NCBI GenBank assembly: GCA_014874255.1
Contig: JACWAN010000106.1
Coordinates: 1-32,342 of the forward strand
Source: Candidatus Woesearchaeota archaeon
Lineage (GTDB): Archaea > Nanobdellota > Nanobdellia > Woesearchaeales > UBA525
Length of the DNA: 32,342 nt
Direction of reading: 5' to 3'
The notes below the pieces were generated by a model that searched no databases, had not been told where the DNA came from, and saw nothing but the letters and a program-made list of their open reading frames with translations. The position numbers and the translations under genes were made by a program. Of the stretch, positions 1 through 32,342 are shown in pieces (positions within the stretch are counted from its first letter, which is position 1; each line of letters starts with the position of its first letter).

Positions 1-167
1 CTCCCGGGTTCCTCGGAGGCCTCGGAACCATCCCCCGCGTCGCGCTCTACCCCCTTCCTTGCTTGCCTCGCCCTCTGGCCGGTGACGACTCCATTTGCCT
101 AAGAGCCCCTACAGTAGAAACTGTTATAAGCAAGGAACGAGATTATCCCTTTTGGTGAGACATCAAC

Positions 168-4874: not shown

Positions 4875-5053
4875 GCATCGCTGCCGCCTTGGCACGATTC
4901 CCGGCGGCAAACATGACCGAGTGTTTCGAGACTCGCGTTCGGAGAACACGAGGATTGGGAACGACGTGGAGCGGCGTGACCGAGGCCATAATCGTGAACC
5001 GCCGACAATCTGCCCGGACCGGAGGGAGGATGACTGGGTCGCGGCAGCGATGC
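4875..5053 (+). repeat. family A palindromic intergenic element, copy R1
   Basis: 13-bp perfect terminal inverted arms GCATCGCTGCCGC (4875-4887) / GCGGCAGCGATGC (5041-5053); internal boxes CCTTGG, GAGGCCATAATCG (4982-4994), CGGACCGGAGGGAG. Confidence 0.85.
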
Positions 5054-5794: not shown

Positions 5795-5906
5795 GCGAAC
5801 GCCGCCTTGGATCCTGTGCTGGCGGCGAGCATGGCCGGAGGCCATAATCGCGAGCCGCCAACTGAATCTCGGACCGGAGGGAGAACGGTTTCTCCGCGGC
5901 GTTCGC
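5795..5906 (+). repeat. family A palindromic intergenic element, copy R2
   Basis: 11-bp perfect arms GCGAACGCCGC (5795-5805) / GCGGCGTTCGC (5896-5906); GCCGCCTTGG, GAGGCCATAATCG (5838-5850), CTCGGACCGGAGGGAG, TCTCCGCGGC. Confidence 0.87.
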
Positions 5907-17439: not shown

Positions 17440-17560
17440 GGTGTGCTGCGGAGACTCTATTCTCCCTCCGGTCCGAGGCCTGGTCAGGCGCTCACGATAA
17501 TGGCCTCGCAAAAACGCTCGTCCATGTTCGCGCCCGTCAAACATCCCAAGGCAGCACACC
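17440..17560 (-). repeat. family A palindromic intergenic element, copy R3 (minus orientation)
   Basis: Arms GGTGTGCTGC (17440-17449) / GCAGCACACC (17551-17560); minus strand reads GCTGCCTTGG...GAGGCCATTATCGTGAGC...CTCGGACCGGAGGGAG...TCTCCGCAGC. Confidence 0.85.
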
Positions 17561-18242: not shown

Positions 18243-18362
18243 GGGAATGCCGCGGAGATATTGCTCTCCCTCCGGTCCGGGCAGATTGTCCGCAACGCGC
18301 GTAGCGGATTGGCACTGCGGTGCCAAGCGCGTCGCGGGGCCTTGTTCCAAGGCGGCATTCCC
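18243..18362 (-). repeat. family A palindromic intergenic element, copy R4 (minus orientation)
   Basis: 11-bp perfect arms GGGAATGCCGC (18243-18253) / GCGGCATTCCC (18352-18362); minus strand reads GCCGCCTTGG...GACAATCTGCCCGGACCGGAGGGAG...TCTCCGCGGC. Confidence 0.87.
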
Positions 18363-29811: not shown

Positions 29812-30369
29812 TCAGAGCACGCCCGGGACGAGGGCCTTGACCTCTTTCTTGTAGGCCTCGTACCGCTTGCCGAACGCTTTCAGCATGAGGCGTTCCTCCG
29901 CCTTGAGCTTAATCCAGAAGCTGACCGTGAACGGGAGGAGACCGAGGAGGCCGCTTGCCGCGCCGATGGCGATGACGGTGCCGAGATACATGAGGATCAG
30001 CGCGGTGTAGATCGGGTGGCGGACGAGCGCGTACGGCCCCGTCAGTATGAGCTCGTGGTCCTTCTTCAGGGCGACCGTGCCGCTCCAGTTCGCGCCGAGG
30101 ACGATCCGCGCCCAGACGGCGAGGACGAGTCCGGCGACGGTGAGGAGGAGACCAGCAGTCTCTATGATGGTCGTCGGGGGCAGGATCCTCGTCGCGAGGG
30201 GGCCGCGCACGCCGAGCCAGAGGAGGACGAAGCCGAGGAGGTAGAGGGGGAGCCACGAGACGGAGCCCCAGAGGTCCTGCCGCTCCGCGATCCGTTTCTG
30301 GAAGAGCCGGGCGACGAGCCAGACGATCCCCAGGGCGACCCAGCACGCGACGAAGAGCTGCGCGAACAT
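29812..30369 (-). CDS. isoprenylcysteine carboxyl methyltransferase-like membrane protein
   Basis: GTVALKKDHELILTGPYALVRHPIYTALILMYLGT...KAEERLMLKAFGKRYEAYKKEVKALVP. Confidence 0.87.
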   Translation of the reverse strand: MFAQLFVACWVALGIVWLVARLFQKRIAERQDLWGSVSWLPLYLLGFVLLWLGVRGPLATRILPPTTIIETAGLLLTVAGLVLAVWARIVLGANWSGTVALKKDHELILTGPYALVRHPIYTALILMYLGTVIAIGAASGLLGLLPFTVSFWIKLKAEERLMLKAFGKRYEAYKKEVKALVPGVL

Positions 30370-30497
30370 GGTGGACTGGACGTTCGGTCTCTTGAAAAAG
30401 GTATCGGCAGGGGGGCGTCCAGGCAAATGGAAGTCGCCGGCCAAAGGTGAGGCGTTGCATTGACGCGGGAGGAGGAGGTCAGGAGGTTGTCCCCACA

Positions 30498-30741
30498 GGC
30501 GAGCACGAGGCTCGCCGTGATTCTCAGGAACGAAGTTCCTGGAACCCCGGGAGCTTCGCTCCCTGTGGTTCCGGCAGCGTTCCGGTACCGAGAACTACGG
30601 GGTCGACGGGTGTAGCAGAGGACGATGCGATACGCCGGAAGCCGGCGCTACGAATTCGGAGAATTCGTGCGCCCGGAAATCTGCGGGTCTCCTAGGGCGA
30701 CCCGCGAAGCGATTTGCCTAAGACCCCTGCCAAGGGGCAAA
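30498..30741. repeat. intergenic array of consecutive distinct short-loop hairpins
   Basis: GGCGAGC-ACGAG-GCTCGCC; CAGGAAC-GAA-GTTCCTG; GGAACC-[GGGAGC-TTC-GCTCCC]-GGTTCC; GTAGC...CGCCGG-AAG-CCGGCG...GCTAC; ACGAATTC-GGA-GAATTCGT; GCGGGTC-N9-GACCCGC; TTTGCC...GGCAAA. Confidence 0.85.
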
Positions 30742-30790
30742 GAATTAAAAGAGGGGCGCTCTGTCGAGAGAGGAAAGGAGGACTGAGAGC

Positions 30791-32125
30791 ATGGACTACG
30801 ACCTCATCGTCATCGGCGGCGGACCCGCGGGGATCATCGTCGCGACCAACGCGAAGCTGCGCCATCCGGAGAAGAAGGTGCTGCTCGTCAAGAGCGTCGG
30901 GAAAGGGGTGGTGCCATGCGCAATCCCCTACATGTTCAAGACGATGGACGACCCGGAGAAGAACCGGCTCGGCGACGCCGCCCTCGAGAAGAACGGCGTC
31001 GCGATCGAGGTCACGGAGGTCGTCGCGCTCGACCGGGGACGCCGTGCAATCACGACGGCGGAGGGTGAGACCTTCACCTATGAACGGCTCGTCCTCGCGA
31101 CGGGGTCGGAACCGGCCACACCGCCCGTCGACGGCGTCGGGAAGAAGGGCGTCTACGCGATCAGGAAGGACTTCGACTACCTGAAAGCGCTGCGGACGGA
31201 GATCGAGCGCGCCACTGACATCGTCATCATCGGCGGCGGCTTCATCGGCCTCGAGGTGGCGGACGAGCTCACCCGCTTCCCCGAGAAGAAGGTGACTGTC
31301 GTTGAATTCCTCCCGCGGGTGCTCGCAGGCTCCTTCGACCCGGAGTTCGCGGCGGCAGCGATGGCGGAACTGACCAAGCGGGGCGTCACAATCCTGGCCG
31401 GCACGAAGGTCGTCCGGATCAGGGGCGGGGAACGCGTCGAGGCGGCGGAGCTCTCCGACAAGCAGATCATCCCCTGCCAGCTCGTCCTCCTCGGAGCGGG
31501 GGCGCGGCCGCTGACGGGACTCGCCGAGAAAGCAGGACTGGCGGTCGACAAGGGCATCGTCGTCGATGAGCGGCAGCGGACGGCGGACGAGCGCGTCTTC
31601 GCGATCGGCGACTGCGCCGCGAAGAAGGACCTCTTCACGGGGAAGAGCGCGCCGGTCATGCTCGCCTCGACCGCGACCGCGGAGGCGAGGATCGCGGCCG
31701 GCAACCTCTTCGCAGAAGGCACGAGGAACAGAGGGACGATCGCCGCGTACTCGACGAAGATCGGCGACCTCGTCCTCGGAGCGGCCGGCATGACCGAGGA
31801 ACGCGCGCGGGAGGAGGGATTCAAGATACTCGTCGGGAAAGCGATCGGGCCGGACAAGCACCCGAGCTGCCTCGCCGGCATGAAGGAGCAGCAGACGAAA
31901 CTCGTCTTCTCCAAGGAGACCGGGCTCCTCCTCGGCGGACAGGTGACAGGCGGCGACTCGGTCGGAGAGCTGGTCAACGTCATCGCGCTCGCGATCCAGA
32001 AAGGGACGAAGCTGACGGAGCTGGAGACGCTCCAGGTGGCGACGCACCCCAAGCTGACCGCGGCGCCGACGACGTACCCGCTCGTCGTCGCGGCGCAGGA
32101 CGCTCACAAGCCGAGCAGCTTGTAG
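30791..32125 (+). CDS. CoA-disulfide reductase / NADH oxidase-like FAD-dependent oxidoreductase
   Basis: YDLIVIGGGPAGIIVATNAKLRHPEKKVLLVK, VPCAIPYMF (redox Cys), DIVIIGGGFIGLEVADELTRF, VFAIGDCA. Confidence 0.9.
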   Translation: MDYDLIVIGGGPAGIIVATNAKLRHPEKKVLLVKSVGKGVVPCAIPYMFKTMDDPEKNRLGDAALEKNGVAIEVTEVVALDRGRRAITTAEGETFTYERLVLATGSEPATPPVDGVGKKGVYAIRKDFDYLKALRTEIERATDIVIIGGGFIGLEVADELTRFPEKKVTVVEFLPRVLAGSFDPEFAAAAMAELTKRGVTILAGTKVVRIRGGERVEAAELSDKQIIPCQLVLLGAGARPLTGLAEKAGLAVDKGIVVDERQRTADERVFAIGDCAAKKDLFTGKSAPVMLASTATAEARIAAGNLFAEGTRNRGTIAAYSTKIGDLVLGAAGMTEERAREEGFKILVGKAIGPDKHPSCLAGMKEQQTKLVFSKETGLLLGGQVTGGDSVGELVNVIALAIQKGTKLTELETLQVATHPKLTAAPTTYPLVVAAQDAHKPSSL

Positions 32126-32241: not shown

Positions 32242-32342
32242 GTTCACCTCAAAATGCGCTGAGGTGAACGATATGTTAGCCAAAGGTGCCAAATTTCTTC
32301 CCGACATTTCTGAGCAGCAATTGCGAATGTTTTCCCGTCGAG
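32242..32342 (+). mobile_element. probable start of an insertion sequence: 10-bp palindrome followed by a truncated transposase-like ORF
   Basis: GTTCACCTCA (32242-32251) / TGAGGTGAAC (32260-32269); ATG at 32273 reads MLAKGAKFLPDISEQQLRMFSRR..., cut by the window end; local composition shifts to AT-rich. Confidence 0.45.

Follow-up and report, generated by a model that had tools for sequence, protein, structure and literature searches.

MITEs have been described in archaea, where IS5-type and other families comprise 2–34 copies each (PMC3852290). Those of the IS5 family, as in Methanosarcina, resemble the elements described here in being short (140–250 bp), gene-less and IS5-type related, with inverted repeats of ~15–17 bp; they differ from them in that here we find ~105 copies, a 9-bp target duplication and interchangeable hairpin modules inside (PMC3852290). 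BOX elements consist of outer modules around variable inner modules, and in S. suis a single inner module is found within either of two outer types (PMC3049150). Like the elements here, pneumococcal and S. suis BOX are dispersed mobile repeats with outer modules and a variable inner set, a likeness in architecture only, whereas here several distinct hairpins stand in fixed order between IS5-like ends with 9-bp duplications. Pneumococcal BOX elements are the closest precedent for the modular build.

REP/BIME and REPIN sequences are also high-copy intergenic palindromes in mosaic clusters (PMC3116915, PMC2817692). They are tied to REP-associated tyrosine transposases, whereas the terminal repeats and duplications seen here point to a DDE transposase. 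In yeast mitochondria, GC-rich hairpin clusters form a mobile DNA family. The yeast mitochondrial family is described as a dynamic one (PMC4478555), as is that analyzed here, from which it differs in being organellar. A literature search for MITEs in Woesearchaeota, limited to one library, found no paper joining the two.

Here we analyze a row of hairpins in a 32,342-nucleotide stretch of DNA (the window) from a Candidatus Woesearchaeota archaeon. The most fitting reading of the element that holds it is an old MITE of IS5 type that carries hairpin modules as its cargo. We put at about 0.88 the probability that the hairpin row is the interior of such a non-autonomous element, with the window copy a decayed member of its family.

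Terminal repeats and target duplications

The array had been placed at 30498–30741 in a preliminary description. That region is real but extends further, forming part of the element mapped in Table 1. Six of the seven hairpins listed there are perfect as given (outer stems of 7, 7, 6, 8, 7 and 6 bp) and the inner CGCCGG-AAG-CCGGCG is present, while the outer stem of 30612–30651 is 5 bp. The last, 30713–30741, runs across the element's right boundary and is probably incidental.

Table 1. Features of the window discussed in the text
Feature	Position	Strand	Basis or remark
Old MITE copy with hairpin array, 313 bp	30414–30726	+	Terminal repeats at both ends; array recurs in the same genome
Left TIR, degenerate, GGCGTCCAGGCAAAT, 4 mismatches to GGCTCTTAGGCAAAT	30414–30428	+	Sequence, pairing
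Right TIR, ATTTGCCTAAGACCC, 1 mismatch	30712–30726	-	Sequence, pairing
Hairpin module 1, stem GGCGAGC/GCTCGCC	30497–30520	+	1 mismatch to reference; module inventory
Hairpin module 2, stem CAGGAAC/GTTCCTG	30521–30546	+	Exact; module inventory
Hairpin module 3, stem GGGAGC/GCTCCC	30549–30568	+	Exact; module inventory
Hairpin module 4, decayed here	30569–30595	+	3 mismatches; base pairs lost compared with other copies
Core stem-loop with CGCCGG-AAG-CCGGCG (30633–30647)	30612–30651	+	Similar core in L036
Double-hairpin cassette 7-8 (ACGAATTCGGAGAATTCGT + GCGGGTC..GACCCGC)	30650–30705	+	Module 7 exact, module 8 diverged
Palindrome-shelled repeat copies	4887–5040, 5805–5895	+	~90–200 bp, CCTTGG...CGGACCGGAGGGAG
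Palindrome-shelled repeat copies	17450–17551, 18254–18352	-	~90–200 bp, CCTTGG...CGGACCGGAGGGAG
Isoprenylcysteine/phospholipid methyltransferase-like gene, left neighbour	29812–30444	-	Pfam PEMT + ICMT
NAD(P)H/CoA-disulfide-reductase-like flavoprotein gene	30791–32125	+	Pfam Pyr_redox_2

As had been stated, the array is not a tandem repeat; the whole of it nonetheless recurs elsewhere in its own genome (an assembly of 1.29 Mb in 122 contigs, 81.5% complete). With the array region as query, 35 places were found, matched in modules (at least five near-full copies and ~30 partial ones), and many copies lie between inverted repeats GGCTCTTAGGCAAAT...ATTTGCCTAAGAGCC. The 13-bp end of the terminal repeat, GGCTCTTAGGCRAAT, has 209 matches in this genome (105 + 104), compared to 1 + 1 for the reversed control. 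The 209 ends correspond to ~105 copies; most are paired, bounding elements of ~165 bp, and the family's TIRs are 15 bp long and exact or near-exact.

An exact 9-bp target duplication flanks 30 of the 58 testable elements, compared to 1 of 3213 control offsets. We also scanned blind to the ends, for an exact 9-bp duplication with a 14-bp inverted repeat (at most 2 mismatches) spanning 60–1500 bp. All 31 elements recovered bear either the window-type end or a second end, GGCCGCGATGAAA. Array-bearing elements with intact duplications include ones of 219 bp (GTCGGATTG), 278 bp (GACCCAAAC) and 280 bp (GGGAGGGTT), and hence the arrays moved as part of the element. By our own gene caller, 45 of 61 elements are intergenic, compared to 14% for random placement. 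The same element family occurs in G003, a genome of the same genus, and in Woesearchaeota UBA153, where duplications were also seen; the sequence-based assignment of the host depends on this occurrence in UBA153. No viral contigs with paired terminal repeats were found, and the sister-genome loci examined gave no clean case of an empty site for an individual MITE.

The window copy lacks a target duplication (30405–30413, CGGCAGGGG, versus 30727–30735, CTGCCAAGG). MITE target duplications decay with age, such that their loss is expected in old copies (PMC10969869). Because its ends are degenerate and the duplication is missing, membership of the window copy rests on the family. Open reading frames across it (e.g. 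30447–30695) were not called as genes by a codon model, and its 313 bp hold no transposase gene.

One MITE family, with ~105 copies each roughly 180 bp long, accounts for ~1.5% of this genome, which is small at 1.29 Mb. Many contig ends of the assembly fall in MITE copies, and the terminal repeats offer a practical mask for assembly and annotation of such genomes. The contig analyzed here itself begins within another MITE copy (window 1–107). Elements of the two MITE families often lie exactly 9 bp apart (L107, L109, L111, L122, L140, L150 and others), as if the second had used the duplicated target of the first.

A candidate transposase

The sister MITE family matches, at its ends, the one intact insertion sequence of IS5 type in the genome, on contig C66 (L134:122–1020; G000:C66). 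Bounded by ends of the second type (GGCCGCGATGAAAA), this insertion sequence is flanked by the 9-bp duplication ATCACCGGC. Its intact, 277-residue product is the sole DDE_Tnp_1 transposase in the genome, scoring 68.2 bits against the Pfam DDE_Tnp_1 model (cut-off 23) and 124.7 bits against NCBIfam IS5_2, under the cut-off of 140.

For the window-type ends, a 367-bp derivative capped by such an end encodes the N-terminal 99 residues of an IS5-like transposase. These 99 codons lie on contig C22, which begins within an element of the window end type, and their product shares 31% identity with the N-terminal part of the C66 transposase; this fragment matched no NCBIfam model. Contig C75 overlaps C22 by 141 bp and carries CCTCCTCGA, the 9-bp duplication, again at the opposite flank; the two contigs are joined by this overlap alone, which is probably an assembly k-mer. 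No full-length transposase with window-type ends was found in the 81.5%-complete assembly. These sequence comparisons support an IS5-type origin of the window-type ends, but not completely. An IS5-family transposase acting in trans would then move the elements. We also considered an ISL3-type partner, suggested by the GGCTCTT start, and rejected it after finding no DDE_Tnp_ISL3 match in nine genomes.

Hairpin modules and their conservation

At 30 array-bearing places in this genome and G003, the modules follow a fixed order. The main series opens with module 1 and closes with module 4; between these, 5-6, 2-3, 2 or 6 may stand. They sit at the apical position (GGGG..CCCC / ACGGGG) of a fold-back core, and the same module strings occur in different core subfamilies. 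Modules are found within two terminal-repeat shells and a third, palindromic shell: the same ones lie between ends of the second type (L030 and L036, with 2 and 1 mismatches in the duplications) and, in G003, inside copy-specific palindromes (L092, L105). The hairpins behave like exchangeable modules common to different kinds of elements. Ectopic recombination or gene conversion among scattered copies may be how the modules spread and are exchanged.

Among 10 copies of the same type as the window copy, variation is 3.5% at stem positions and 16% in loops, a 4.6-fold difference (Fisher P = 2e-10, with copies that are not independent). Since stems vary less than loops, the hairpins may have a structural role for the element as such. 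The type-E array gave no compensated pairs, its copies being too similar. Nine compensated pairs were seen in the 165-bp core, and we do not count them as independent because they reflect few subfamily splits. The hairpin folds are kept; either palindrome correction or selection for the fold of the element would hold the stems intact. The modular hairpins provide a natural experiment on how palindromic DNA is preserved and exchanged.

The orthologous locus and alternative readings

The left neighbour gene has an ortholog in G003 with 82% protein identity. There, the left flank matches up to window position 30408 and then continues almost directly with 32103 onward. The array and the oxidoreductase gene (30409–32102) thus form a ~1.7-kb block that is either missing in G003 or gained here. 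The array's absence from the orthologous place means that it is neither a feature common to that place in both species nor a conserved gene-linked RNA. Close relatives of the oxidoreductase gene were seen only in other families of the order, and hence the gene may be laterally acquired. Near the contig end, a 10-bp perfect hairpin (GTTCACCTCA/TGAGGTGAAC) lies in an AT-rich stretch at 32242–32269, after a second breakpoint relative to G003 (about 32206).

One extension of the MITE reading, rather than an alternative to it, is that a copy, mobile in the past, has since been co-opted here for a structural or regulatory function. The divergent intergenic position would suit such a role, as would the ~1.7 kb, gene included, by which the two sister species differ; but the decayed ends and the broken module 4 suggest no local selection, and we consider co-option unlikely.

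Somewhat less likely still is that the array acts as a structured non-coding RNA or as a cis-regulatory leader of the oxidoreductase gene. The array does lie upstream of a gene, its stems are constrained among copies, and its fold is significant on both strands. When we folded the region against shuffled sequences, as had been proposed, z was –4.7 for the plus strand and –4.2 for the minus strand, with none of 200 shuffles as good. However, dozens of dispersed copies adjoin unrelated genes, the array is absent along with the gene at the orthologous site, and module 4 is broken in the window copy. Neither Rfam covariance models, at gathering and relaxed thresholds, nor a tRNA scan gave a match in the array region. 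Among the roles suggested earlier, a mobile or integration-related one comes nearest (MITE cargo, TIRs and family-wide 9-bp duplications), while that of a structured RNA found no Rfam counterpart. The hairpin cluster is real, but it is not a unique locus-specific RNA.

An array of recombination sites resembling integron attC or phage att sites would also present imperfect hairpins end to end and modules common to several sites. Yet there are no genes between the hairpins, and the elements end in terminal inverted repeats accompanied by a 9-bp duplication of the DDE type, making this reading highly improbable. Finally, the high GC of the intergenic region might have produced the hairpins by composition, an explanation refuted by the homologous copies elsewhere in the genome and by the count of five perfect, non-overlapping hairpins (stem at least 6, loop 3–8) versus 0.47 on average, and never more than 3, across 2000 dinucleotide-shuffled sequences. 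The earlier judgement that chance was improbable therefore holds, and no other stretch of the 32-kb window has as many.

A third, palindromic shell

Besides the two terminal-repeat families, a palindrome-shelled repeat is present in ~30 copies in the sequence examined, four of them within the window. Cassette 7-8 of the window MITE is also an optional cassette of this family. Each of the window's four copies has its own complementary arms of 11–13 bp; one copy is conserved in G003 and one is absent there. Overall, the arms pair at 10 or more of 12 positions in 20 of 28 copies, compared to 4% when arms are exchanged between copies, although the observed arms, unlike the control arms, were chosen as the best-pairing ones within a narrow span of offsets. 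No target duplication was found for this family. We also considered the palindromes as possible pre-existing terminators; at one site, the ortholog in G005 lacks such a palindrome.

Orthologous sites in G003 have the arms in common with the window's genome and differ in the interior. One such site contains the 7-8 double hairpin in the window's genome and lacks it in G003; among the others, one differs throughout its interior, one is conserved in full and one is absent. Sister genomes with roughly 80–95% identical flanks have common sites with differing cassettes. This turnover inside conserved shells is the least explained part of the system. Tentatively, and with the odds against it, the hairpins might be interchangeable cassettes of DNA (or RNA) that make up a common pool, with a hairpin-guided process adding, removing and substituting them inside conserved shells. 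Such shells would include transposon ends and site-specific palindromes with copy-specific arms, the shell at a given site staying while the cassette changes between sister species. Orthologous shells with different cassettes were seen at L046:1582 / L105 (G003), L133:3213 / L165 and L042:2945 / L180. Among the orthologous palindrome shells, one compensatory change was observed in an arm.
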